From an uncultured Butyrivibrio sp. (GTDB taxonomy: Bacteria > Bacillota > Clostridia > Lachnospirales > Lachnospiraceae), in assembly GCA_946546925.1 (NCBI GenBank), contig CAMNOS010000006.1:1-45198 (forward strand): a DNA stretch of 45,198 bases. Reading direction: 5' to 3'. Below, piece by piece: positions 59-31,057 of this stretch. A program made the position numbers and the translations under genes. The notes under the pieces are model-generated. The model made no database searches and was not told the DNA's origin. It saw only the letters and a list, made by a program, of their open reading frames with translations. Position 1 is the first letter of the stretch; every line of letters starts with the position of its first letter.

Positions 59-3000
59 TTATTTTACAAGAATTCCATTCTCATCGAAGGTGTACTTGAA
101 GAAGATCAGAAGTCTTATTGTCTTTGACCTGACCATTCTTCCCTGGAGGTCAAAATATCTTGTGCCGTCCTTGAAGTTTACGAATCCGGCTTTCATGATA
201 AGACCGCTCTTTGTTGCATAATAGGTGTAACCGCTGTCAGTGAAAAGAGTGTTCTTCAGCATTACACCATTTTCATCAAAGTAGTAGCTGAAAAGAAGGA
301 TATCTGCAAAGCCCTTGATAGCCTTGCCGTCTCTTCCGAAGTAGTAGGTATTGCCATCTACTGTAGCTGAAGCATTCCTGACCATTGCACCGCTATTCTT
401 GAAGTAGTATGTTGCATCGTCAATGACCATAAGTCCCCTGGCCTTGGATCCATCAGGCATTACGTAGTAGGTAACGCCCCACTTTGTTACAAACTCACCC
501 TTCGCAGGAATCTCAGGCTCTGCAGGTGTTTCTGGTTCTACAGGTGTCTCGGGTTCTACAGGTGTCTCGGGATCTACAGGTGTCTCGGGATCTACAGGTG
601 TCTCGGGATCTACAGGTGTCTCGGGTTCTACAGGTGTCTCGGGTTCTTCTGCCGTGATTCCCAGGAAGCTGTAAACTTCTTCTTTGCTTGTAAAGCTGTC
701 TCTGCTGCTTGTTGTGAAATAATTCTTTTCCGCAGTGATGTTCCTGTTGTCATCAAGCTGTGAACCATTGTTATTGTTGTTAAAGATATAAGTGAGTGTT
801 CCGGTCTCGATAGCCTTTGTGGGAACAGTGGTGGTGTACCAGTTGGTACCCTCTTCTCTGTCCATCTGCTTTCCTGGCCATCCGCCGATGAGATTGTTGT
901 ACTCACCGTTTTCTCCGCCGTAGATGTAAAGAGCAATGTCCTTCCAGTTATCATCATCTGCTGACTCATTGTAGAAATAAACAGTGCTGTAAGCTACATC
1001 TTCTCCTTCAGCTATTGCTGCAAGTGCATCCTTCTTGGAGCCGTACTTCTGGAAACCGATTCCGTTGTGAAGGAAGAATCTGTACTTCATGTCAGTGATC
1101 TTCATATCGCTGGTCTGCTTGCCGTTATCGCCGTTATTGAAGATGATATTGAGCTCCTCACCTGCTCCGGCAGGAAGTACTATCTTATACCAGCCATCTT
1201 CTTCCTGAGTCATCTCAGTTCCGGGCCACTCTCCAAGTGAAGCTGCGCCCCATGAGTATGCACAGACTTTTTCCCACCCCTGTGTGTTGTAGAAGTATGC
1301 TGTTGTGTAGCTGTCTGATACTCCAAGCGCTTCCTCTGCTGCTTCCTTGCTTGTGTATCTGTCGATCTGAAGCTGACCGGAAGACCTCTCAGCATCTCCC
1401 GCAATATAGATATCAGTGCTGTCAGGGGTTATACCCTCGATGTTAACTGTCTGTTTGTCGCCGCCGTTATTGAAGATGACGTTAAAGGAATCAATATCTC
1501 CCTTAACCTTGACGTCTCCACGCCACCAGCCATCGCCCTCGTTTGCAGCTCCGGTGCCGGGCCATCCTCCAAAGATCTGGGTTCCGTCAGAAAGCCATCC
1601 ATAAGCATTGACATTGGCCCAGCCTTCTGTACCGAAGAAGTAAACAGGATATGTATGAATTCCAATAGCCTCTTCAGCTTCCTTTTTGGAGCTGTAGAGT
1701 GTTGTGCTGTCAAATGTAGCAAATGTGCCTGTCTGAGGGCTTACTGAGTATACGGGAGAAACAGCGCCGTTTCCGTCCTCAAAGGTGATCTCGAACTCAT
1801 CGTCAAGTACAGTTGCCCAGTGCCATCCGTCGTTGTCATCAACTGTTGAAAGAGTTTCATCAGATCCGTCAACCCTTGCAACTACACTTCCCCAATTCTC
1901 TGAATTGTAGAAGGATACAACAGTTCCTGTTCCCTCTTCTCTCTCGGAGAGAACTACAACAGATCTTGCTCCTACACTTCCGTAGAGCACACCGTCTTTT
2001 ACCAGGAAGATCTCATCGCTTCCCTCAACCATGTTGGGGTAGGTTCCGTCTGCAAGTCTTGTATCGGAAACAATTGATGTCCTTACTGCTGCGCTGTTGA
2101 TAAGTACTGCACCCTGCACGTCCTCACCGATTCTCTCAACCATTACGGTCTGGATGTTGTCGCCGGGGTTAGACACATACTCGTCAGCATCAAGCATCTG
2201 TCTGCGGAAAAGATTAACCGCCTTTACCTCAGGTGCTTTATAGATATCACTTCCTGCAGCACCTATGAGGTTATCACCGTAAGGATTGTCCTTGGAACTG
2301 TTATTGGGTCTTGAGAAGAACAGCGGTGTTCCGTCCTTCCTTGCGCTGATATAGGACCATCCGAGGATTACCTGCTCATCGTTAATTGACTTCCAGCAGC
2401 TCTCGCTGTCATTCATATAGTTGTCATGTGACTCAACCCATGTGATGAGCTTCTCAGTATCAGCTGAATAGGTTCTTCCGTTTACTGTCTCATCGCTGAT
2501 CTGGTAATCAGTTATCTTACTTGCTGTGAGATTGCCGCTTGCAAGAGCTGAACGAAGATTAGCTCCGTAGTTGCTTGCGGTTGTGCCTCCGATGTACTCC
2601 TGATAAGCAGGAATCCTTGCTCCTGTTCCCTGAAGAACCTCTCCGTATACAAAGAGATCGTCGTAGCTCTTTGTTCCAACTTCTTCCGAATATTCGTTGA
2701 GAGCTTCTCTCATATTGGGATAGAAAGTATTTCTGTCAGCATCATCTGCATAGTCTGAAGGTACCGGATCGTCCGGAAGTGCGATGTGCTTGGCTGTATC
2801 TATTCTGAATCCGTCAGCGCCAAGATATACGCAGTCCTTGAGGTATTCATAGAAGTATTTCTGGAATCCCTCGTTCTCGGTATCTACATCTGGAAGACCG
2901 CCCATCGCATAGTATGTGAGCTCTACCCTGTCAGAATATCCTCCTGCAAGCTTGCCTGTTGTGTGATACAGACTGTCAAACCCTCCTGCAGCATCTATCA

Positions 3001-3790
3001 GACTCTGTGACACCTGTGACGACGAAGGTGTTGTGTGGTTGGGAAGAATATCCACAATTACGGCAACGCCGTACTCATCAGCAACATCACACATGTGCTT
3101 GAATTCTTCCCTTGTTCCCAGCTGGTAATTGCCGATAACCCAGTCCGTGGGCTGATAGTGGTAGTACCACATTCCGTTCGGGCCGTGGAGATTCATTCCT
3201 GTATCTGTAGCAAGGCATTCATTGGCCGGTGAAGTCTGAACCGCTGTATATCCTGCATCAGCTATTGCTTCCATGTTGTCTGCTATAGTGTTGAAGCTCC
3301 AGCAGAATGCCTGTAAAATAGCGCCATCATGTATATTGTCCCTGTTGACCGATGCGTTGTCCGATTCTCTCTTTTCTCTGGGAGCGTAATTGGAAGTCTT
3401 TTCATCCTTCTTGTCTTCTTCCTGATCTTCCTGCTTCTCGATATCATATTCTTCGCCGTCCATGTCGATCAGCTCTTCGTCTTCCCCAGCTTCATCTATG
3501 AGCTCTTCAGATTCCTCTTCCTGTTCCAAAGGATCAGCATTATCCTCATCCTTTTTTTCATCATCTGAAAGATTGGTCAGATCTTCTGCATCCTCATTTT
3601 CATCAGCAGCCTTGTTATTATCCATGTTGTTCTCGGCATCGTCTTTTGTCTGCTCTACTGCCGGCAGTTCCTGATCCGCTGATGCGTCCGCCGCCATAAC
3701 TCCGGTAACGTTTCCAAAAGAACTCAAAAAAATAGACAGACTAAGGCCTGCTGCCGCAAGGGTTTTTGTCCACAGCTTAACTCTTTTCAT
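59..3790 (-). CDS. Secreted multi-domain alpha-amylase (GH13) with starch-binding modules and wall-binding repeats
   Basis: Extracellular starch-degrading enzyme of 1243 aa. Numbering from the ATG at 3790: signal peptide about 1-34; a long Asp/Glu-rich linker about 35-140; GH13 catalytic domain about 150-515 with the conserved regions [15 protein letters not shown] (nucleophile D331), VYGEVL (acid/base E384) and ESHDN (D456); a beta domain to about 615; four tandem CBM25/26-like modules (about 622-705, 711-820, 823-925, 928-1045), the last three with a GGWPG or GEWPG motif and FNN; eight PETPV-type hexapeptides (1049-1096); then aromatic choline/glucan-binding-type repeats (YYF, G-x-A) to the C terminus, which probably hold the enzyme on the cell surface. 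The frame is open up to a GTG at 3853, but GGAGG four bases before 3790 and the signal peptide beginning there decide the start. It stands alone with its own promoter, operator and terminator. Family certain; exact product specificity not shown. Confidence 0.96.
503..646 (-). repeat. 18-bp tandem repeats coding the PETPV linker of the amylase
   Basis: Eight consecutive 18-bp units encode (E/D)PETP(V/A) hexapeptides between the last starch-binding module and the wall-binding repeats. The three central DPETPV units are near-identical at DNA level, so copy number could vary by slippage without breaking the frame. Pro/Thr/Glu linkers of this type usually act as rigid spacers. Confidence 0.9.
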
Positions 3791-3871
3791 ATGTCCTCCA
3801 TCGCCTCCAAATACTGTGTTTGCAAGGTACAATGCATGATCGGGGCATCGCACACAAACTGGTTACAAAAT

Positions 3872-20714: not shown

Positions 20715-21800
20715 CTACTCTGCATCCAGCTCATAGTAGATCCCGTTCTCAATATTATTCCTGACTAAGTCCCTGGCAGTCTCACAGTCCCGCTGCCATT
20801 TATCGAAGGCTTCATCCCATGAGCTGTAGCGACTGTCGCCGCGATGGTCTGATATGAGACCCTTCCCGGAAGCTCTGTAATTGTCCACGAGATACTGCTC
20901 AAAAAAGTCGGTGACTTTCTCAGCTCCCAGAATGTTGGTGTGGGTTCCGTAATCCCTGATGTCTGTCTCAAAGTCCAACCCGATCTCATCCGTGCAGCCA
21001 TTCATGTCAAGGAACGGATAGCCGTGCTCCGTGATAAGATCCGACATGTAATTTATCTTCTTTTGCTCATCTTCCGTCGCGGAATAAGGAGTTACAACAA
21101 AAAGTGCATTGAGCCCCTTTTCTTCAATGTATTCAAGAAGATCAAGCAGATACTCTTCCTCCTCAGGGGGAATCGCCTCTCTTTGTGCGGTGACAAAGGG
21201 CTTATCGGCAGGACCCACATCGGTTTCTATCACATGCCCCTTCAGGTCTTCGGGATAGGCGTAGAAAAGGGTTCTGAACTGGCTCCATAAAAAGAGCGTC
21301 TTCCAGTTTGAGTGATACTTGAAGATATCAAAATAATATGTAAGCCTCTCCTCTTTGTCATCAACCATGGCATTTATGGCCCTGATCCTGTTAAGCGAAT
21401 ACTTAAGGTTGTCGGTCACTTCCCTGGTGTGAGCCATATTCCCCAGAAGATCCTCATCCCTTGCTGTCCACATCCTCATCTCAAAGATTAAAAGCTCGGG
21501 ATTCTGGCGCTTTAACACCTCTTCCACCAGATACCTGGTTGCAACGGGCCTCTGCATATTTGAAGAAATCGGATAGACGGTTATTCCTGTATCTGCGTAT
21601 ATTTTGGGAGTTGCAATGCAGGCCGGCAGAGGACTTGATCCGATAAACACCGCATCCAGGGTATTTTTCTTCTCGGCATAAAAGCCCACATATCTGTCCT
21701 TCACATCTCCGTTGGTCCGAAGGATATATGTCAGATGGACCAGCATCCAGAGGATCAGCACTATGAAAATAAAACTTTTTAACAGTTGTTTCTTTGTCAT
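20715..21800 (-). CDS. SGNH/DltD-like membrane-anchored protein, partner of the MBOAT acyltransferase
   Basis: 361 aa with one N-terminal membrane helix (LKSFIFIVLILWMLVHLTYIL) and an extracytoplasmic domain. DAVFIGSSPLPACI has the Gly-Ser-Ser block of the SGNH/DltD/AlgX-type fold, and the later DYGTHTNILGAEKV fits the Asp-x-x-His position of the catalytic site. Such proteins work next to an MBOAT protein to move acyl groups onto surface polymers (DltB/DltD, AlgI/AlgX). The gene starts three bases after the MBOAT stop, which supports that partnership. The acyl group is not known; the nearby ACP, VOC and FkbH genes suggest an ACP-bound short acid. Confidence 0.85.
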   Translation of the reverse strand: MTKKQLLKSFIFIVLILWMLVHLTYILRTNGDVKDRYVGFYAEKKNTLDAVFIGSSPLPACIATPKIYADTGITVYPISSNMQRPVATRYLVEEVLKRQNPELLIFEMRMWTARDEDLLGNMAHTREVTDNLKYSLNRIRAINAMVDDKEERLTYYFDIFKYHSNWKTLFLWSQFRTLFYAYPEDLKGHVIETDVGPADKPFVTAQREAIPPEEEEYLLDLLEYIEEKGLNALFVVTPYSATEDEQKKINYMSDLITEHGYPFLDMNGCTDEIGLDFETDIRDYGTHTNILGAEKVTDFFEQYLVDNYRASGKGLISDHRGDSRYSSWDEAFDKWQRDCETARDLVRNNIENGIYYELDAE

Positions 21801-21803
21801 ACT

Positions 21804-23330
21804 TTAAAAATCCTTGTATATAAACTCAGCTGCGCTGTATCCCGGACCGTATTCAGCCAGAAGAATGCAGTAGAACAAAAGGCCGATGATGACAGCCCAC
21901 CTTAGAATAACAGGCCTTGAAAAGATATACTCCCTCACGCTTCGTGCAGTGCCTTCCCCGGCCGAAGTCTCAATTCTGTACTGCATTACGGAAACAGCGG
22001 CAAGAATAACAAGCGATACTAAAAGAATCCCCCACTCAACCACATCAAGGCCGAGATTCAACAGACTCCCGTCTACAAGAATTCCGGGATTAAATGTGCT
22101 AAAGCTCTCCCCGATAAGCCTTAGAGCATGAGGCACATTGTCAGATCGAAAGAACAGGTCACCTATGCACACAAGAATAAAAGTCCTGACAACCCTGAAG
22201 CAGTCAGCTCCCCTGCTCTTTAAGTCTATATGCATTTTATCCGCGAACAGCCAGGTGAAAAAGGGAAGAGTTATCTCGCCTGCAACTATGTAAGCCCAAT
22301 GAAGAAGTCCGGAACCTATGACATACTTCATCTCTCCGCCGTGCCACAGTCCCACAGAAAGCCACAGTATGAACATGGCCACATAAGTTGTATACTGCTT
22401 GCCTTTCTTTTTGCCAAACTTTCCCTTAAGGCTCTTCCCCAGAGATGTGATCATTCCGGTTCTCAGGAGCGGATAAAAGACATTCTCTCTCATCCACTCA
22501 CCCAGAGTAATGTGCCATCTTCTCCAGTATTCGCTGATATTTTTGGCAAAAAAAGGTGTTCTGAAATTCTCGGGGAGCATTATTCCGAAGCACTCGGAAA
22601 CTCCGATCACTATGTCCATGCAGCCCGAAAAGTTTGTGTAGAGCTGCAGCGCAAATGCGACTGTCGCGATCATGATGTATAAACCGGGGTAATTCCGGTC
22701 GTTGCCATAGATCTCGTTGACTATGGTCGCAAGGCGCTCTGAAATGACCAGCTCCTTAAAAAAGCCCCAGAGCATCCGCAGCGAGCCGTAACAGATATTC
22801 CTGTAGCAAAGCTTATGCTCACAAAAGAACTGCTGCTGCATGTCCCTCGATTTAAATATCGGGCCGGATATCATGACGGGAAAATACAGGCCGTAGAGGG
22901 AAGTCTTAAGAAAGCCGGACAAGGGCTCTGAGAGTCCGTTATAGACTTCAATAAAATACCCAAGGAGAATAAATGTATAAAAAGAAAGCCCCAGAGGTGT
23001 CATGAGCGCCCCCGTTCCTGTAAGCTTAATATACTTAAGTACCACAAGCACTCCCAGAAGAGCCGTCAGTTCCGCGATCAGGATCAGTCTTCTTGTCCTG
23101 ATGTTCTCATCGGAAGTCGCAGACAGAGCTTTAAGCAGCCCCCAGGTGATAAGTGATGCCACAACCGGGTACAGAATAAGGACTCCGTTACCCGCAAGAA
23201 GATAGTAAGAAGCGCTGCCCAAAAGCAGTATAACCCACTGTCCCCTGCCTTTTGTAAAGACAGGGACAAGATAATATATAATTAAAGTCAGTGCAAAAAA
23301 GCACAAAAAATAAAAGCTTGTAACGCTCAT
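21804..23330 (-). CDS. MBOAT-family membrane-bound O-acyltransferase
   Basis: 508 aa polytopic protein of the AlgI/DltB/PatA group. The conserved core is present: FFAKNISEYWRRWHITLGEWMRENVFYPL, then LWLSVGLWHGG with the catalytic His at about residue 330. About eleven membrane segments. Family members pass acyl groups from a cytoplasmic carrier to an acceptor outside the membrane. It is placed between an AsnB-type gene (stop three bases before this start) and the SGNH-like partner, so it most likely acylates the polysaccharide made here. Confidence 0.95.
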   Translation of the reverse strand: MSVTSFYFLCFFALTLIIYYLVPVFTKGRGQWVILLLGSASYYLLAGNGVLILYPVVASLITWGLLKALSATSDENIRTRRLILIAELTALLGVLVVLKYIKLTGTGALMTPLGLSFYTFILLGYFIEVYNGLSEPLSGFLKTSLYGLYFPVMISGPIFKSRDMQQQFFCEHKLCYRNICYGSLRMLWGFFKELVISERLATIVNEIYGNDRNYPGLYIMIATVAFALQLYTNFSGCMDIVIGVSECFGIMLPENFRTPFFAKNISEYWRRWHITLGEWMRENVFYPLLRTGMITSLGKSLKGKFGKKKGKQYTTYVAMFILWLSVGLWHGGEMKYVIGSGLLHWAYIVAGEITLPFFTWLFADKMHIDLKSRGADCFRVVRTFILVCIGDLFFRSDNVPHALRLIGESFSTFNPGILVDGSLLNLGLDVVEWGILLVSLVILAAVSVMQYRIETSAGEGTARSVREYIFSRPVILRWAVIIGLLFYCILLAEYGPGYSAAEFIYKDF

Positions 23331-23333
23331 TGC

Positions 23334-25229
23334 TTAGTTATCCCGTCTGTATTCATCTTCATACCACTGCAGGAACATCAGTATATACCATATCTGGATC
23401 CTGTAAATCCCTCTTTCGGTAAAATCAGTCCATATCCTTTCGACCACATCGGCATCAAGTATACCCATGGCCCTGATTTTTTCTTTGCTAAGAAGTGCCT
23501 CTGCCCAGTCTCTGAGCTCACCGCTCTTAAGCCATTTGCGGACCGGAATTGAAAATCCCTTCTTGGGCCTCTCCATCATCTCTCCGGGCACATAACGGTA
23601 TAATACATCCCTGAGTATCTTTTTGCCAGCGCTATCATCGCGAAGGTACTGAATGGGAAGTGAAAATGCAAAATCAACCACATCTCTGTCGAGCATGGGA
23701 ACCCTTGTCTCCAGTGACACGGCCATGGCTGTCCTGTCCACTTTAACAAGGATGTCGTCAGGGTGATAAAGGAGCATGTCCATCAGCATGGTCTCGTGAT
23801 TGACTTCTCCAAGGAAAGAAGCCGGAAGGTCAATGCACTTGTAAGAAAGTGCGCTCTTTTTCAATGCAATCTTACCTATGAGGGGATCGGTCTCATGTTC
23901 AAACTTATGGAGTTCATAGGGGGACCTTGCACCCAGATATTTCGCTTTTAAATAGCGCTCCGCTTTAGATTCATTTCCTGTTATGTCATCACCCATTCCC
24001 GCCAGAAGCGCCCAGCTTGCAGCTCTTCTTAGAGGGTAGGGAATCTTCTTTATCTTATTCCACACGCGGCTCACCGAGGCGTATGAGTTATAACCGCAAA
24101 AGAGCTCATCTCCTCCGTCACCTGATAGCGACACCGTAACATGATTCCTGGTCATCCTGCTCACCAGATAGGTGGGAATCTGTGAGGAATCAGCAAAAGG
24201 CTCCCCAAACATAAAAGGCAGCTTTGGGACAACTGCCCTTGCATCCTTATCGGATATGTAGATCTCCGTGTGCTCAGTCCCAAGGTGATGTGCTATCTCT
24301 TTTGCATAGACCGCCTCGTTGTACTTCTCATCCTCCATTCCTATGGTAAAAGTCCTGACTTTACCGGGAGCTATGGACTGCATAAGGGACACTATGGTAG
24401 AGCTGTCTATCCCCGCAGAAAGAAATGCCCCCAGAGGAACATCAGCTATCATCTGTCCCTTTATCGACTCCTTTAGAAGCCTTTCAAGCTCAAGGGACGC
24501 CTCATGAAAACTTCCCTTGAATTTATTCTGCTGTCCCTTAAGTGCCACATCCTTAAGGCTGTAATAAGTCTGCACCCTGTACTTGAGAGTATTGATATCA
24601 AGTGTAAGTACCGTTCCGGGCTCCAGCTTATATATCCCTTTGTAGATTGAGTAGGGCGCAGGTATATAGCCATCCTCAAAATAGATATCAAGAACATCCT
24701 CATTGATGCCATTGTCAAAACCGTCAATGCAGCGGATGCAACCAACATCTGAGGCAAAAACAAATGCTCCGCCGACATAGCCATAGTAAAGGGGCTTCTC
24801 TCCAATCCTGTCCCTTCCCAGGGTGATGGTCTTTTCCCTGCTGTCGTACACAGCAAAGGCAAACATGCCCTTTGCCATAGTCAGAGTCTTATCTACCCCG
24901 TATTTTTCGATGGCTTCAATCAGCACTTCGGTGTCGGAAGTGCTCCTGAACAAAATCTCTTTTTCAAGGTCCTTTTTGATCGTGCCGGCGTTATAGATCT
25001 CACCGTTGTAGACCATAACATCCCTGCCCGAAGCAGATACGAACGGCTGTGCACCGTTCTTGGAGAGGTCAACAATAGAAAGACGCCTGTGTCCAAGCGC
25101 CACGCTCTTATCTTCACTTATATAAACACCGCCGTCGTCAGGCCCCCGGTGCAGCATCCTCTCATTCATCTTACGGATGTTGGCAGCCGCATCGCCCTTA
25201 AACCCTATAAGTCCTGCAATTCCGCACAT
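23334..25229 (-). CDS. asnB: Glutamine-hydrolysing asparagine synthetase-family amidotransferase
   Basis: 631 aa. The N-terminal glutaminase domain begins MCGIAGLIG with the nucleophile Cys2, followed by HRGPDDGG, GHRRLSIVDLS and VYNGEIYN; the synthetase domain has the PP-loop LSAGIDSSTIVSLMQ and LSGDGGDELFCGYN. The ATG at 25229 (GAGGAA before it) is chosen because the mature enzyme must expose Cys2; eight upstream codons are open. In polysaccharide loci this family often amidates uronic acid carboxyls to uronamides (WbpS-like) rather than making asparagine. The window has a second copy (29117-31057) and a GalNAcA-type supply pathway, which fits that use. First gene of its operon, about 45 bases below an extended -10 promoter. 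Confidence 0.93.
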   Translation of the reverse strand: MCGIAGLIGFKGDAAANIRKMNERMLHRGPDDGGVYISEDKSVALGHRRLSIVDLSKNGAQPFVSASGRDVMVYNGEIYNAGTIKKDLEKEILFRSTSDTEVLIEAIEKYGVDKTLTMAKGMFAFAVYDSREKTITLGRDRIGEKPLYYGYVGGAFVFASDVGCIRCIDGFDNGINEDVLDIYFEDGYIPAPYSIYKGIYKLEPGTVLTLDINTLKYRVQTYYSLKDVALKGQQNKFKGSFHEASLELERLLKESIKGQMIADVPLGAFLSAGIDSSTIVSLMQSIAPGKVRTFTIGMEDEKYNEAVYAKEIAHHLGTEHTEIYISDKDARAVVPKLPFMFGEPFADSSQIPTYLVSRMTRNHVTVSLSGDGGDELFCGYNSYASVSRVWNKIKKIPYPLRRAASWALLAGMGDDITGNESKAERYLKAKYLGARSPYELHKFEHETDPLIGKIALKKSALSYKCIDLPASFLGEVNHETMLMDMLLYHPDDILVKVDRTAMAVSLETRVPMLDRDVVDFAFSLPIQYLRDDSAGKKILRDVLYRYVPGEMMERPKKGFSIPVRKWLKSGELRDWAEALLSKEKIRAMGILDADVVERIWTDFTERGIYRIQIWYILMFLQWYEDEYRRDN

Positions 25230-25283
25230 AGTATTCCTCTTGTTTTCGCCCAAAGGACACGCTGTTTCCTCAGCATTTACAGA

Positions 25284-25292
25284 ATTATACCA
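25284..25292 (-). promoter_or_regulatory. Extended -10 promoter for the asnB-MBOAT-SGNH run
   Basis: Minus strand TGGTATAAT: a perfect -10 (25284-25289) with the TGn extension. The best -35 at a 17-base spacing is only TATCAT; a TTGACC lies too far away (24-base spacing). The predicted start is about 45-50 bases upstream of the asnB ATG. Confidence 0.62.
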
Positions 25293-25331
25293 TTTTCTAT
25301 GTTATGATGATAGGGTCAAAAGTACTGCCCG

Positions 25332-25340
25332 TGATATACT
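25332..25340 (+). promoter_or_regulatory. Candidate extended -10 promoter for the FkbH-like gene
   Basis: TGATATACT on the plus strand is an extended -10 with no convincing -35. It would start transcription at about 25347, giving a short leader with AAGGAG nine bases before the ATG at 25365. An alternative is TTTACA-16-TATGTT about 55 bases further upstream. The 135-base gap between asnB and this gene holds both divergent promoters and nothing else I can support. Confidence 0.45.
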
Positions 25341-25364
25341 AAAGAATAGAAGGAGACCTCAGAT

Positions 25365-27158
25365 ATGAAAGAACTTGAATACCCTTTTGACAACAACTAT
25401 ATCATGAAGAAATCCAGGAGCCTTAAGAAAGCTCTTTTAAATGACGGTACAGACAGGATCCGTAAGAAGATTGCAGTACTTGGCGGCTCCACCACCCACG
25501 ATATCATAAGGATCATGGAACTGTTTCTTTTAAATTACGGAATCGAGCCACAGTTCTATGAATCCGAGTACGGTCAGTACTGGCAGGACGCGATGTTCCC
25601 CGGGGAGCTTGGCTCTTTTGCACCCGATATCATCTTCATCCACACATCAAACCGCAACATCACAGACTACCCGGGCATGGATGACAGCGCTCAGGACGTG
25701 GACAGCAAGCTGCAGAAGACCTATGACCACTTTGAATCCATGTGGAAAAAACTGACTGAGACCTACCACTGCCCCATAATACAGAACAATTTCGAAGCGC
25801 CCTTTTTCAGGCTCCTCGGGAACAGAGATTCCTTTGATGTTCACGGCCGTGTGTCTTTTATAAACAGGCTCAACGAAATGTTTGCGTCCTACGCAAGGAG
25901 CGCAGCAGACAGGTCCGAAAGTTTCTATATCAACGACATCAACTATATCTCTTCCTGCTATGGCCTCGATGAGTGGTCAGACCCCAAGGCCTGGCACATG
26001 TACAAATATGCTCTGTGCATACCCGCCATACCGACGCTTAGTTTTTCCGTTGCCAATATCATAAAATCAATTTACGGCAAAAACAAAAAAGCCCTGGTTC
26101 TCGACCTGGACAACACCCTCTGGGGCGGAGTTGTGGGAGACGACGGTGTAGACGGGATAGAGATCGGGCAGGAGACCAATCTGGGCCAGGTATATTCAGA
26201 GTTCCAAAGCTATGTGAAGATGCAAAAAGACATCGGTATACTCCTTACTGTCGATTCCAAGAACGATGAAGAGAATGCCCTGGCAGGTCTTAATCACCCG
26301 GATGCAGTTCTAAAGCCTGAAGATTTCGTCGCAATAAAGGCCAACTGGGATCCCAAGAGCGAGAATATGAAGTCCATTGCAAAAGAGCTGAATATACTCC
26401 CGGATTCCATGGTATTTGTGGATGACAACCCCGCAGAGAGAGCCATCATAGAAGGTCAGATAAAAGGCGCTGCTGCCCCTGAACTCGACTCTCCGGAGCA
26501 CTACATAAGGATTCTTGATCACTCAGGCTTTTTTGAGGCAACCAGCGTCTCGGAGGATGACAGAAAGAGGAACGAGATGTACATAGCCAACAAAAAGCGC
26601 ACAGAGGCAGAAGTCAGCTTTGCGGATTACGGCGAATATCTCACCAGCCTTGAAATGGAAGCTGACATAATGCCATTCGAGAAGCTCTATGTTCCCAGGA
26701 TTGCCCAGCTCACCAACAAGAGCAACCAGTTCAATCTCACCACCAGGCGCTACAGCCCCGATGACATCCTTGCCGCTGCCGAAGATCCCCAGGTCATAAC
26801 CCTGTACGGACGACTTAAGGACAAATTCGGCGACAACGGGATCGTATCCCTTATTGCAGGAAACATCAAAGACGACGAACTTCACATAGACCTGTGGCTC
26901 ATGAGCTGCCGGGTTCTTAAGCGCGACATGGAATTTGCCATGATGGATGCACTGCACCAAAAAGCCCTGGCACGAGGTGTCAGGACCATATACGGCTACT
27001 ACTATCCCACAGCCAAGAATAAGATGGTGAAGGATTTCTATTCTCTTCAGGGATTTGAGCTTGTTTCAGAAGATCCGGAAGGTAACAGAACCTACCGGCT
27101 TAAAGTCAGTAGCGACTACAGGCAAAAGAACCGCTATATACACGTAAATTGCCGCTAA
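25365..27158 (+). CDS. FkbH-like HAD-IIIC/GNAT fusion protein (acyl-ACP loading)
   Basis: 597 aa, the only plus-strand gene. Three parts: an SGNH-like N-terminal domain (about 1-235; KIAVLGGSTTHDI), a HAD-IIIC phosphatase domain with DLDNTLWGGVVGDDG (D247 and D249), LLTVDSKND and FVDDNPAER, and a C-terminal GNAT-like domain (about 430-597; TNKSNQFNLTTRRY, SCRVLKRDMEFAMMD). Characterised FkbH proteins take 1,3-bisphosphoglycerate, remove phosphate and load a glyceryl group onto an acyl carrier protein; capsule loci of other bacteria carry close relatives. An ACP gene lies 1.6 kb away at 28794-29036, supporting a glyceryl- or similar ACP route. Start set by AAGGAG nine bases upstream. It is transcribed away from asnB and ends against the convergent GT4 gene. 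Confidence 0.93.
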   Translation: MKELEYPFDNNYIMKKSRSLKKALLNDGTDRIRKKIAVLGGSTTHDIIRIMELFLLNYGIEPQFYESEYGQYWQDAMFPGELGSFAPDIIFIHTSNRNITDYPGMDDSAQDVDSKLQKTYDHFESMWKKLTETYHCPIIQNNFEAPFFRLLGNRDSFDVHGRVSFINRLNEMFASYARSAADRSESFYINDINYISSCYGLDEWSDPKAWHMYKYALCIPAIPTLSFSVANIIKSIYGKNKKALVLDLDNTLWGGVVGDDGVDGIEIGQETNLGQVYSEFQSYVKMQKDIGILLTVDSKNDEENALAGLNHPDAVLKPEDFVAIKANWDPKSENMKSIAKELNILPDSMVFVDDNPAERAIIEGQIKGAAAPELDSPEHYIRILDHSGFFEATSVSEDDRKRNEMYIANKKRTEAEVSFADYGEYLTSLEMEADIMPFEKLYVPRIAQLTNKSNQFNLTTRRYSPDDILAAAEDPQVITLYGRLKDKFGDNGIVSLIAGNIKDDELHIDLWLMSCRVLKRDMEFAMMDALHQKALARGVRTIYGYYYPTAKNKMVKDFYSLQGFELVSEDPEGNRTYRLKVSSDYRQKNRYIHVNCR

Positions 27159-27161
27159 TAC

Positions 27162-27191
27162 AAAATGGCCCTTGTGACGGGGCCATTTTTT
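27162..27191. terminator. Bidirectional terminator between convergent genes
   Basis: Perfect 10-bp arms AAAATGGCCC (27162-27171) and GGGCCATTTT (27180-27189) with an eight-base loop, flanked by A and T runs so it can stop transcription in both directions. It begins four bases after the FkbH stop and touches the GT4 stop codon (27190-27192). Confidence 0.93.
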
Positions 27192-28407
27192 AACCTATTA
27201 TTTCCTCCAGATATTCCTTCCACTTCGCATTGGCAACATCGGGCGCAAACCGCTCCTGAACCTTTGTTGCCGCAATTCCCAGGCGGTTACAGAGTTCTTC
27301 GCTCTCAAGAAGTCTTATGAGAGCATCTGTAAGTGCCCCGGTATCGCCAACCGGGATGAGAAGCCCGTTTACATTGTCCTCAATGAGGTCTCTTGGGCCT
27401 CCGCAGGGACAATCAGTCGATATGCAGGCAAGACCGAGTGACATTGCCTCAATAAGAGAGTTGGGCATTCCCTCGTGTCCGGACGCCAGGACGAATATTC
27501 TGGCCTTTTCTATGTGCTCGGCAACGTGTTTGACGTTGCCCTTAAACTCCACTCTTGAGTCGATCCCGAGACTTACTGCACGGCGCTGCAGCTTAAGCCT
27601 GTCCGGGCCGTCGCCGTAGAACACAAGTCGGTAATCCTGAAACCTGTCTTTAGTAGCTTCTTTGAACGCTTCCATCACAAGTGCCTGGTTCTTGTTCTCG
27701 TGAAGCCGCGCCACCATGACAATTTTCTTCTCCCGCTCTCCGATATAGCGCTTCCTTACAAATGACGGATCCATTGAGTTTGGAAGGATCGTGCACTTCT
27801 TGCGGATATATCCGGGAAACTTCTCTCTGGCCCCGTTGGACTGCACAGCGATTCCTGCTGCCTTGCCAAAATTGGCGAGCATGCCGGCCTTAAGGGACGG
27901 CGTGTTATATTCCCAGTCAGGATCAGCCCTGACAGAGACCACAACCTTAAATCCTTCCCTTGTTGCGGTTGAGAGTGCCATAATATTGTTCTTACCGATA
28001 AAACTGAGGATCACGTCAGGCTGCAGCATGCGCCAGATATCTCTCAGGATCCTGTGGCGCAGCTTAAGATTGGTAAGCCTGTCCTTTTGCTGCTCGCGCA
28101 AAAGAGCTGAGAACACCCGCTGTATACCGTCCTTCTCACCACCTGTCAGATCCACCCAGGCAGGGTTCTCATCCAGGTCAGCAACCATAGAAGCCCCCGG
28201 TGCTCCCGCAGGAACAGGCTTCCAGGCTGCATGTCTCACCTCGTATTCGTTGGGCGCAAGGTAAGTGGTGACAAGAGTCACCTTGAAGCCTGCTTCAAAA
28301 AAGTAGTCAGCAAGGTTACTCATAACCCGCTCGGCACCGCCTTTTTGAAGAGAGCCTATGTATAATGCAATATGCTTTTGTCTTAACGAGTTGTTACTGT
28401 TCGACAA
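27190..28407 (-). CDS. GT4-family glycosyltransferase
   Basis: 405 aa GT-B retaining transferase. N-terminal KHIALYIGSLQKGGAERVMSNLADYF carries the GGAERV acceptor-side motif; the C-terminal half has KKIVMVARLHENKNQ, ASGHEGMPNSLIEAMSLGLACISTD (EGMPNSLIEAM, the E-x7-E nucleotide-sugar block) and CPCGGPRDLI. The first in-frame start is TTG at 28407, which overlaps the VOC gene end by fourteen bases; GGGGAT about ten bases upstream may serve as ribosome site. No other start exists before the conserved region. Last gene of its operon. Confidence 0.92.
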   Translation of the reverse strand: MSNSNNSLRQKHIALYIGSLQKGGAERVMSNLADYFFEAGFKVTLVTTYLAPNEYEVRHAAWKPVPAGAPGASMVADLDENPAWVDLTGGEKDGIQRVFSALLREQQKDRLTNLKLRHRILRDIWRMLQPDVILSFIGKNNIMALSTATREGFKVVVSVRADPDWEYNTPSLKAGMLANFGKAAGIAVQSNGAREKFPGYIRKKCTILPNSMDPSFVRKRYIGEREKKIVMVARLHENKNQALVMEAFKEATKDRFQDYRLVFYGDGPDRLKLQRRAVSLGIDSRVEFKGNVKHVAEHIEKARIFVLASGHEGMPNSLIEAMSLGLACISTDCPCGGPRDLIEDNVNGLLIPVGDTGALTDALIRLLESEELCNRLGIAATKVQERFAPDVANAKWKEYLEEIIG

Positions 28408-28783
28408 GTTCGATTATCCCCATGCTTATGTTATTAAGGAAAACTACTTTTCTGCCCTCTATACATGGCGCAGTCTCAGGTTCCTGTATCACGGTGTATC
28501 CGTTTTCAGAAAGCTCAGCCACAGCGCTTTCAAGGCTTTGCACCTCATAGCAGAAGTGATAGGGTGAATTCTTAAACCTTTTAAGCAGCGGATACATTGG
28601 AGACTCCTCACTAACAGGCTGGATAAGTTCAACCCTGTAGTCTCCGTTTATCAGGAATTCAATATTGCATTTTCTGATCTCATCATACCTTGACGGTTTC
28701 TCGACCACATAACCGAGCTCAAGAAATTTTTTCTCAGTCTTTCCGATGTTTTTGGCAAGATAGCCCACATGATGTATTTTCAT
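28394..28783 (-). CDS. VOC (glyoxalase/methylmalonyl-CoA epimerase-like) family protein
   Basis: 129 aa, one vicinal-oxygen-chelate domain with the two beta-alpha-beta-beta-beta halves: KIHHVGYLAKNI at the start (metal-ligand His), VELIQPVSEESPM, YHFCYEV (second His) and MGIIELVE (C-terminal Glu ligand). Family members isomerise or cleave small metabolites, e.g. methylmalonyl-CoA epimerase. The ATG at 28783 has AAGGA seven bases upstream; the longer open frame overlaps the ACP gene and lacks homology. It starts ten bases after the ACP stop, so it may act on an ACP-bound substrate; that is inference. Confidence 0.85.
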   Translation of the reverse strand: MKIHHVGYLAKNIGKTEKKFLELGYVVEKPSRYDEIRKCNIEFLINGDYRVELIQPVSEESPMYPLLKRFKNSPYHFCYEVQSLESAVAELSENGYTVIQEPETAPCIEGRKVVFLNNISMGIIELVEQ

Positions 28784-28793
28784 CGCTCTGTCC

Positions 28794-29036
28794 TTACTGA
28801 AGTTTACTGATGATGATATCCACCATCTCACCCACATTCTTCATGGACACTATCTGGCCCATATTGAACTTGATGCCAAACTCCTGCTCGATGGCATTGA
28901 TGAGGTTGATGTGCTCAAGTGAATCCCAGTCTTCAATGTCATCTGCTGTAGTTGCATCGTTAACTGTGATATCTTCATCCTCAAATACATCCCTGAACAC
29001 TTCGTTCAGTTTCTCAAAGACTTCTTCTCTTGTCAT
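28794..29036 (-). CDS. Acyl carrier protein
   Basis: 80 aa, acidic, four-helix ACP. DWDSLEHINLINAIEQEFGIKF contains the DSL motif with Ser39, the attachment site for 4'-phosphopantetheine; the helix after it (LINAIEQEF) is typical. TAAGGAG lies nine bases before the ATG. A stand-alone ACP in a polysaccharide locus, followed by a VOC protein and near a FkbH-like gene, points to a dedicated acyl-ACP donor for glycan decoration, not fatty acid synthesis. No phosphopantetheinyl transferase is in the window. The 80 bases upstream hold a weak CTGG/CCAG hairpin only. Confidence 0.94.
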   Translation of the reverse strand: MTREEVFEKLNEVFRDVFEDEDITVNDATTADDIEDWDSLEHINLINAIEQEFGIKFNMGQIVSMKNVGEMVDIIISKLQ

Positions 29037-29116: not shown

Positions 29117-31057
29117 TCACATATGATAGCTGTACCACTGCTGGAATATGTAGAAGGACCATGCTATCTTGCTGAAATTGGCACCGGTAGCCGGGCCTGC
29201 ATCTCCCATAACAACGTAGTCATTTATAAACTTTGATACGTAATCCGCATCAAATATTCCCTGCTTTTTAAGGAATGATGTGCTGCTGTAATCAAGAAGA
29301 GCCTCCTTCAAAGGTCCTCTCAGCCAGGCATCCATGGGTACGCCAAAGCCGGTCTTGGGTCGCTCCAACAGCTGCTTAGGTATATAGTCGTATGCAATAT
29401 CCTTGAGGATGTGCTTCTTGTCACCTCGACAGTACTTGAACCTGTGAGGGATTCTGAAAGAGTACTCCATCACATCCGTATCCATAATAGGACACCTGTT
29501 CTCCAGGGAATACTTCATGGAAGCCCTGTCCATCTTGACCAGAATATCTTCGGGAAGATAGGTGTCCATATCAAGGAGCATGCGCCTTATCTGAAAATTC
29601 TTTACCCCATAGACAGTTTCAAAGGGATACAGGACCGGTGCCTCGTTACTGCTTAAGTTAAAATCGGTGCCAAGGTATTCAGATGCACTGACAGGTCTGT
29701 CAAGGACCTCTCTTCCTGAAACAAATGCATGGGCCGATCTCACATAGCTTTCTGACACCAGCTGAGTCTTGGTCTCAGGATCTCTGTTGCCTGCCACAAC
29801 TCTGACTCTGAAGGGCATCCTGTCGATAAGTTTACCTCTTCCGACAGGAATCTTACCTATTGCATTGACTATAGCGCCGGGAATCTCAAGCTTCTGTGCC
29901 TGTCCCACGTTGTCATATATATTGTAACCGCAGAAAAACTCATCTCCGCCGTCTCCCGAAAGGGCCACGGTCACATCTTTTTTGGCCAGCTTGCTCACCA
30001 GCATTGATGGTATCTCAGAGTTATCCGCAAAAGGTTCATCGTAGTACTGAGGTATACTTGCCACCAGATCAAACATCTCCTTTTCCGAGATGTAGAGTTC
30101 CGTGTGGTTGGTTCCAAGGTACGCAGCTATCTCTTTGGCGTACTCTGCCTCATTATAGCTTGGAACATCAAAACCAATACAGAAGGTCTTAACCGGTTCC
30201 TCGGAGAATTCCTGGGCAATGGCTGTCACGAGAGAGGAATCATACCCTCCCGAAAGGAAGCACCCAAGCGGAACATCAGCTATCATCCTGGATACCACTG
30301 ACTTTTTTAGTCTCTCCTTCAGTCCTTCTTTGGCCTCTTCATAGTTTGTCACGGGGTCGGCGGATTTACTTGCATATACTTCCTTGATGTCCCAGTATTT
30401 CCACTTATTGATCTCGCCGTCCTTAAAGCGCAGGGCTGATCCTGCCTCCAGCTTGTAAACATCGGTAAATATCGTCTCCGGAGCACTTATATACTGCTGG
30501 TACAAAAACCTTGGAATGAGCTGTCTTCTTATCTCTCCCTTAAATCCCGGACACTTCATGATGGGCTTAAGCTCCGAGGCAAAAACAAGGTTGCCGTTAT
30601 CCACCCAGTAGAACAGCGGCTTCTTGCCGATCCTGTCGCGGGCCAGGAAAACTTCACCGCTCGCCCTGTCATAGATAGCGATGGCGAACATTCCGTGAAT
30701 GTGATCCAGCATATCAATTCCCCACTGAAGGTAAGCAGCTATGATCACCTCCGTATCGCAATTGGTCTTGAAGGGATAGTATTTAAGCTCCTCCTTCAGT
30801 TCCAGGAAATTGTAGATCTCACCGTTAAACACGACAGAGACTCTTCCGTCAGACGAGTGCATGGGCTGGTGCCCCAGAGGCGAAAGATCAAGTATCGCAA
30901 GTCTTCTGTGTGCAAAGCCGATAAAGTAATCCCCCGCTCCCTCATATATCTCAACACCGGCATCATCAGGCCCTCTGTGGTACATGGTGTCATTCATTAT
31001 GCGCAGGTTTTCTTCAGGTATTCTTTTTTTGGATACGTAGCCACATATGCCGCACAT
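29117..31057 (-). CDS. asnB: Second asparagine synthetase-family amidotransferase
   Basis: 646 aa. MCGICGYVSKK with Cys2 as glutaminase nucleophile, YHRGPDDAGVEI, AHRRLAILDLSPLGHQPM and VFNGEIYN in the first domain; LSGGYDSSLVTAI (PP-loop) and LSGDGGDEFFCGYN in the synthetase domain. Clearly a paralogue of the copy at 23334-25229 but diverged (SGGYDSS against SAGIDSS), so the two probably have different substrates. In this setting amidation of a uronic acid or of an acyl group is more likely than asparagine supply. It is next to a deacetylase-fold gene and the ACP gene in the same operon. Confidence 0.93.
   Translation of the reverse strand: MCGICGYVSKKRIPEENLRIMNDTMYHRGPDDAGVEIYEGAGDYFIGFAHRRLAILDLSPLGHQPMHSSDGRVSVVFNGEIYNFLELKEELKYYPFKTNCDTEVIIAAYLQWGIDMLDHIHGMFAIAIYDRASGEVFLARDRIGKKPLFYWVDNGNLVFASELKPIMKCPGFKGEIRRQLIPRFLYQQYISAPETIFTDVYKLEAGSALRFKDGEINKWKYWDIKEVYASKSADPVTNYEEAKEGLKERLKKSVVSRMIADVPLGCFLSGGYDSSLVTAIAQEFSEEPVKTFCIGFDVPSYNEAEYAKEIAAYLGTNHTELYISEKEMFDLVASIPQYYDEPFADNSEIPSMLVSKLAKKDVTVALSGDGGDEFFCGYNIYDNVGQAQKLEIPGAIVNAIGKIPVGRGKLIDRMPFRVRVVAGNRDPETKTQLVSESYVRSAHAFVSGREVLDRPVSASEYLGTDFNLSSNEAPVLYPFETVYGVKNFQIRRMLLDMDTYLPEDILVKMDRASMKYSLENRCPIMDTDVMEYSFRIPHRFKYCRGDKKHILKDIAYDYIPKQLLERPKTGFGVPMDAWLRGPLKEALLDYSSTSFLKKQGIFDADYVSKFINDYVVMGDAGPATGANFSKIAWSFYIFQQWYSYHM

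Follow-up and report, generated by a model that had tools for sequence, protein, structure and literature searches.

In a window of 45,198 nucleotides (the whole stretch of DNA analysed, from an uncultured Butyrivibrio sp., contig CAMNOS010000006.1), we found a polysaccharide locus that would encode, with a probability of roughly 0.6, a Dlt-like system of polymer acylation in which an acyl carrier protein (ACP) is charged by an FkbH-type protein instead of DltA and an MBOAT/SGNH pair esterifies a glycan. A VOC protein would adjust the carried acyl group. This reading builds on five observations: the presence of the genes, their intact residues, their conserved linkage, the swapping of modules and the kinship of the MBOAT proteins. 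What is new is a candidate variant of carrier-fed acylation with a candidate new VOC enzyme activity. If the reading is true, carrier feeding extends beyond D-alanine, surface decoration is tied to a glycolytic intermediate, and the VOC subfamily, of which the solved member goes by the name of glyoxalase, gains a pathway. The chemical prediction is glycerate esters on the surface glycans of Lachnospiraceae.

Parts of the locus and the proposed route

All five families named in an initial annotation of this DNA (FkbH, ACP, VOC, MBOAT and SGNH) were present, with catalytic residues intact, at the following positions together with their neighbors:

20715..21800, minus strand: SGNH-fold protein, by predicted fold and conserved residues; N-terminal helix at residues 3-26 of the model, probably membrane-spanning
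21804..23330, minus strand: MBOAT acyltransferase, DltB-like, with a C-terminal FIYKDF acyl-shuttle motif (PF03062, DltB 6bug)
23334..25229, minus strand: AsnB1, asparagine-synthase-like amidotransferase, syntenic in same-genus loci
25365..27158, plus strand: FkbH-type protein, proposed glyceryl transferase/phosphatase (TIGR01686)
27159..27192, no strand: hairpin with a T-run, located where the FkbH and GT4 genes converge (inverted repeat I9, from sequence)
27190..28407, minus strand: GT4 glycosyltransferase, syntenic in same-genus loci
28394..28783, minus strand: VOC protein, proposed carrier-bound 2-hydroxyacyl epimerase (ligand residues H5, E52, H76, E125)
28794..29036, minus strand: stand-alone ACP with DSL phosphopantetheine site S39 (PF00550)
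29117..31057, minus strand: AsnB2, second asparagine-synthase-like amidotransferase, upstream of the ACP

The FkbH protein scored 288.5 bits with TIGR01686 (curated NCBIfam cut-off 146.65). Residues D247, D249, D353, D354 and C515 were at least 95% conserved among 130 aligned sequences, and both the HAD motif and the transfer cysteine, which we take to be C515, are intact. The ACP has the serine expected of a Dlt-type carrier protein (S39, Ser in 116 of 116 aligned sequences); no DltC model was among its NCBIfam matches. Two further frames, an FkbH-ACP fusion (locus L109) and a longer FkbH (L141), were not counted as evidence because both cross stretches of N.

The MBOAT protein matched PF03062 and the DltB structure 6bug (E 8.4e-18). 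With H330 at least 95% conserved (83 aligned) and the FIYKDF tail, it has the features expected of the MBOAT of such a pair, while its score with the DltB equivalog model TIGR04091 was 139.6 bits against a cut-off of 375. The SGNH protein had no family match in Pfam/NCBIfam-type scans and was assigned from its predicted fold, the lists of fold matches used here and for the VOC protein leaving room for families not listed. Its S56, D283 and H287 are invariant or nearly so among 20-23 aligned sequences, as expected for the Ser/Asp/His of the partner, and the protein would be a DltD/PatB-like final transferase.

In the proposed route, FkbH would take D-glyceryl phosphate from 1,3-bisphosphoglycerate, strip the phosphate and load D-glyceryl, probably via Cys515, onto the phosphopantetheine of the ACP. 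The VOC metal would then bind the 2-hydroxy-thioester, and the C2 proton would be removed and returned, most likely on the opposite face, to give L-glyceryl-ACP. The MBOAT would move the acyl group from the ACP onto the tyrosine of its own FIYKDF tail, as DltB does from DltC. Finally, the SGNH protein would take it from that tyrosine and esterify a surface polysaccharide, the product of the surrounding locus.

Linkage and exchange of the genes

Of 397 genomes drawn from the family, 43 had a VOC match (counted to E 0.001) and 99 an FkbH match, over the cut-off in 82. FkbH over the cut-off was present in 29 of the 30 genomes with a strong VOC match (E below 1e-20) compared to 53 of the 367 others (Fisher 3.5e-21), and in 37 of all 43 VOC genomes compared to 45 of the remaining 354. 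By the listed coordinates, VOC and FkbH were at most about 3.1 kb apart on one contig in 21 of the 30 strong-VOC genomes. The placement of the VOC protein in the FkbH pathway, as initially suggested, gained support from genomes where the genes are unlinked: eight of the nine with a strong VOC and no nearby FkbH still carried FkbH (p 2.5e-6). The sole strong-VOC genome without FkbH (G305) is an 81% complete draft with the VOC on a 4.8 kb contig. Weaker VOC matches came from 13 genomes, and in four of these (G013, G165, G338, G387) FkbH lay within 3 kb.

For the comparison by locus, 37 VOC regions and 77 FkbH regions, some overlapping, were taken and duplicates were removed. The VOC regions supplied the 22 FkbH proteins behind the FkbH profile, which leans to the VOC-linked type. 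With this profile, 89 FkbH proteins that were 400 residues or longer reached more than 200 bits; the 74 above 600 bits, from genomes of the same family and including that of the window, were used. Within 6 kb of these 74 we found ACP in 66 loci, MBOAT in 44, VOC in 23, MaoC in 17, SDR in 15 and SGNH in 21, always alongside MBOAT. The 15 excluded proteins (600 bits or less) had ACP in 11 cases, VOC in two, GNAT in six and MBOAT in none. Ranked by count, ACP, MBOAT, VOC and SGNH, which were labelled by profile, came first among the neighbors of FkbH, the other families being clustered by BLAST. All five genes were together in seven of the 74 loci (window included), and all but a called SGNH in six more; the expected linkage of the five families in related genomes was thus borne out.

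A VOC-only sample from titled contigs (the best 80 of 202 relatives, overlapping in part with the FkbH-locus sample) had, within 6.5 kb, ACP in 69 loci, FkbH in 66, MBOAT in 29, SGNH in 10 and MaoC in none. One draft contig of Coriobacteriales (L217) carries all five genes. A class-wide draw of 391 genomes, with the Clostridium acetobutylicum VOC protein as a query, gave at least 65 matches, three of the best being already in the earlier samples (G000, G060, G207), and 20 new regions were taken. FkbH and ACP were present in every one of the 11 regions that scored best for VOC (L296-L306), two of which have a VOC frame that is broken or has stops (G490, G668); the nine regions with distant VOCs (L307-L315) had neither.

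Related bacteria swap the adjusting enzyme and keep the remaining gene set. VOC and the MaoC-type dehydratase never occurred together among the 74 FkbH loci (p 0.0006), nor among the 54 loci whose flanks reach 6 kb in each direction (17 with VOC, 12 with MaoC, p 0.005), with loci treated as independent in both statistics. When the states VOC, MaoC and neither were mapped on a tree of 72 of these 74 FkbH proteins, at least 24 changes were needed, compared to a shuffle mean of 32.4. The states are therefore more clustered than in shuffles, and the number of changes indicates that editors were swapped often. For example, the SGNH, MBOAT, ACP and FkbH proteins of L074 and L161 are 58-84% identical, and the slot between MBOAT and ACP is filled by VOC in L074 versus SDR-MaoC in L161 (in L074 the VOC gene runs in the opposite direction, and ACP and FkbH are separated by two extra genes).

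MaoC stood in the place of VOC in 17 of the 74 loci (L101, L155, L161 and 14 others), with SDR alongside in 13. The D.NP.H motif was kept in all 20 MaoC frames found, and the two MaoC and two SDR proteins checked with Pfam were all named as such. MaoC dehydration of glyceryl-ACP followed by SDR reduction of the pyruvyl product may yield lactyl-ACP. Of the “glyceryl- or lactyl-type” thioester of the initial annotation we keep the glyceryl option for the window; the lactyl option fits the sister loci with MaoC and SDR better than this VOC locus.

The transferase varies as well, with GNAT genes or a GNAT-VOC fusion in L083, L087, L089 and L090 and hexapeptide proteins in L088, L091 and L092. The natural GNAT-VOC fusion (L089:9386-10378) adjoins ACP and FkbH, which we count in favor of the FkbH-fed pathway. 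VOC was also seen with ACP and an AMP ligase (L092, L093), and in L070 a methyltransferase sits between ACP and VOC. A broader reading would be a modular non-Dlt acylation in which either FkbH or an AMP ligase charges the ACP, the editor is exchangeable (VOC as a 2-hydroxyacyl-ACP epimerase, or MaoC with SDR leading to lactyl-ACP) and so is the transferase (MBOAT/SGNH, GNAT or hexapeptide); we put this forward tentatively, at clearly less than even odds.

The MBOAT tree had 88 rows, with only the MBOATs of nine of the 80 loci entering from titled contigs. The window MBOAT fell in a clade of 31 rows, all FkbH-linked (SH-aLRT 100), which agrees with the earlier tying of the MBOAT to the FkbH set. 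This clade is nested in 57 rows (35 FkbH-linked, nine ACP-only, eight AMP-ligase-linked and five unlinked, where the label “none” can reflect too short a flank), and the branching adjacent to it was weakly supported. The FxYxxF tail was present in 44 of 51 FkbH-linked MBOATs (window included), nine of nine AMP-ligase-linked and five of 11 ACP-only ones. One paper describes FxYxxF as the acyl-shuttle motif in PatA and DltX (PMC12148441).

Weighing the proposed activities

The VOC protein belongs to the pathway, given its genome-wide tie to FkbH and its exclusivity with MaoC. Its H5, E52, H76 and E125, presumably at the usual metal-ligand places of the VOC fold, as well as D34, R37 and C78, were invariant among 24 aligned sequences and at least 95% conserved among 99. 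The nearest solved relative, glyoxalase I of C. acetobutylicum (3hdp, 2qh0; 48% identity), shares the fold and the proposed ligands; methylmalonyl-CoA epimerases come next. The C. acetobutylicum protein was not firmly placed in a VOC tree of few columns, and among the class-wide matches listed none was identical to it (best 51%). A review states that the two active sites of this glyoxalase each lie inside a single subunit (PMC5412262). The genomic association suggests that the window VOC probably acts on a carrier-bound acyl group, at the alpha carbon of a hydroxyacyl. That the act is epimerisation is nearly an even bet, leaning slightly to the doubtful side.

A different VOC activity would leave the cassette real. 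As a glyoxalase-I-like isomerase, the protein would convert the hemithioacetal of a 2-oxoaldehyde and the carrier thiol into 2-hydroxyacyl-ACP (lactyl-ACP from methylglyoxal), a second charging route. We consider this activity unlikely: VOC also occurs with AMP-ligase carriers (L092, L093), and the protein is hardly an independent loader because 29 of the 30 strong-VOC genomes have FkbH.

The MBOAT/SGNH pair might instead be an ordinary acetyl-CoA-fed O-acetyltransferase merely adjoining an FkbH/ACP/VOC set that serves a cytoplasmic acyltransferase. Parts of one paper have non-Dlt MBOAT/SGNH pairs using acyl-CoA (PMC12148441), and in many FkbH/ACP/VOC sets the transferase is of the GNAT or hexapeptide type; the scatter of other FkbH-linked MBOATs in the tree, given below, points the same way. 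The spread of the FxYxxF motif means that, although it fits the mechanism, it cannot separate carrier from acyl-CoA use; the MBOAT tree bears on that, and the all-FkbH-linked clade speaks against acetyl-CoA, as does the absence of any GNAT or hexapeptide family match among the 37 window proteins scanned. So do the 30 MBOAT loci returned from FkbH-negative genomes (1.5 kb flanks): 17 had an ACP-like gene (14, with low scores of 14-25 bits) or an AMP-ligase-like gene (nine), and 13 had neither. Against NCBIfam, two of these AMP ligases, both cut by locus ends, and three of the ACPs matched amino-acid-activating, DltA or DltC models, all below cut-offs. We judge this alternative rather improbable. 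In L178 and L182-L185, also from FkbH-negative genomes, an AMP ligase, an ACP, an MBOAT and an SGNH gene are adjacent, an arrangement that resembles Dlt, with scores under the Dlt cut-offs tested.

A VOC protein outside the pathway, as a methylmalonyl-CoA epimerase or a detoxifying glyoxalase, is very improbable: there is a TIGR03081 match and one VOC copy adjoins lspA (L076), but the match has 49.3 bits, below the curated cut-off of 114.95, and the FkbH tie and the exclusivity with MaoC argue otherwise.

Several observations weigh against the FkbH-fed acylation pathway. The clade of 31 leaves out 20 of the 51 FkbH-linked MBOATs, 16 of 17 MBOATs with no loader called also end in FxYxxF, and MBOATs are common, being present in 39 of 40 FkbH-negative genomes. 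Among the 80 VOC loci, 11 had no ACP match within 6.5 kb, and 41 had FkbH and ACP but no MBOAT found in that range; the outlet therefore varies. The nearest solved VOC relative is named glyoxalase I, not epimerase, and removal of the alpha proton is harder from a 2-hydroxy thioester than from methylmalonyl-CoA. Five VOC relatives from the two samples taken together form one clade and are flanked by the amino-sugar pathway genes CapD and DegT (L071, L082, L085, L233, L278), with no ACP called within 6.5 kb, and in L064:9265-12031 a family VOC adjoins triosephosphate isomerase and phosphoglycerate kinase. Finally, FkbH is on the opposite strand in the window.

Phosphoglycerate kinase and FkbH have 1,3-bisphosphoglycerate in common. 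As a separate observation, the L213-type loci, which have VOC, ACP and FkbH but no MBOAT (34 of 80 uncut; e.g., L214:8463-10004 and L213:12746-14557), share neighbor families: two large Pfam-less families, DUF6044, GDSL, GtrA and radical SAM-SPASM, each in 29-50 of 81 loci.

With respect to the strand, the order AsnB - ACP - VOC - GT4 - FkbH - AsnB - MBOAT - SGNH is found on a single strand in the same-genus loci L296 and L298 and in L206; the window has the same order, but with FkbH flipped in place. We dropped inversion by repeats because an inverted-repeat search gave no pair at both FkbH borders. Judging by its sequence, the hairpin between FkbH and GT4 is a probable two-way terminator; since it spans the junction, a mis-join seems unlikely. 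At the window edge (59-3853) lies a large alpha-amylase with three CBM26 stretches and choline-binding repeats.

Comparison with known systems

Among the open-access matches listed, this cassette was not described (searches on FkbH/ACP with polysaccharide, O-antigen or capsule; glyceric acid and flagellin; MBOAT/SGNH/ACP; VOC/ACP epimerase). If the reading is true, the VOC protein would epimerise a 2-hydroxyacyl held on a carrier, to our knowledge as the first enzyme of the VOC fold to do so, and the C. acetobutylicum glyoxalase I structure might be such an epimerase under another name. The difference from that glyoxalase is that the relatives of the window VOC are tied to ACP and FkbH; methylmalonyl-CoA epimerase differs in that the substrate proposed here is a carrier-bound 2-hydroxyacyl. 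In Campylobacter, the cj1302 region may be linked to O-methylglycerate; none of the open-access matches listed in a search for this link showed it. Part of one paper lists cj1302, an fkbH-domain gene, in the flagellar glycan region (PMC7099621).

FkbH proteins load D-glyceryl in assembly lines, according to parts of two papers (PMC8949500, PMC7489565). The polyketide and peptide clusters in which glyceryl-ACP is formed (tetronates, methoxymalonyl units) share FkbH and a stand-alone ACP with the window, whereas the outlet here is a polysaccharide acyltransferase. Of the 37 window proteins scanned, none was recognized as an acyl dehydrogenase, a FabH-like protein or part of an assembly line.

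PatA/PatB-type MBOAT-SGNH polymer O-acetylation has the same C-terminal FxYxxF fused to the MBOAT and an SGNH partner. Its known members are said, in the parts of a 2025 paper on non-Dlt MBOAT/SGNH pathways, to lack a similar carrier protein and to use acyl-CoA (PMC12148441), whereas here a carrier and a loader accompany the pair.

In Dlt (DltA, DltB, DltC, DltD and DltX; D-alanylation of teichoic acids), DltB is fed by the carrier, as parts of two papers state (PMC9338922, PMC12148441). No AMP-binding match was found among the 37 window proteins scanned, DltA being searched for in the window only. The two systems have in common a small-acid thioester on a stand-alone carrier, an MBOAT with an SGNH protein, and the acyl-Tyr motif FxYxxF; they differ in that the loader here is FkbH rather than the adenylating DltA, a VOC protein is added, and the MBOAT carries the shuttle motif as a fused part of its own chain.

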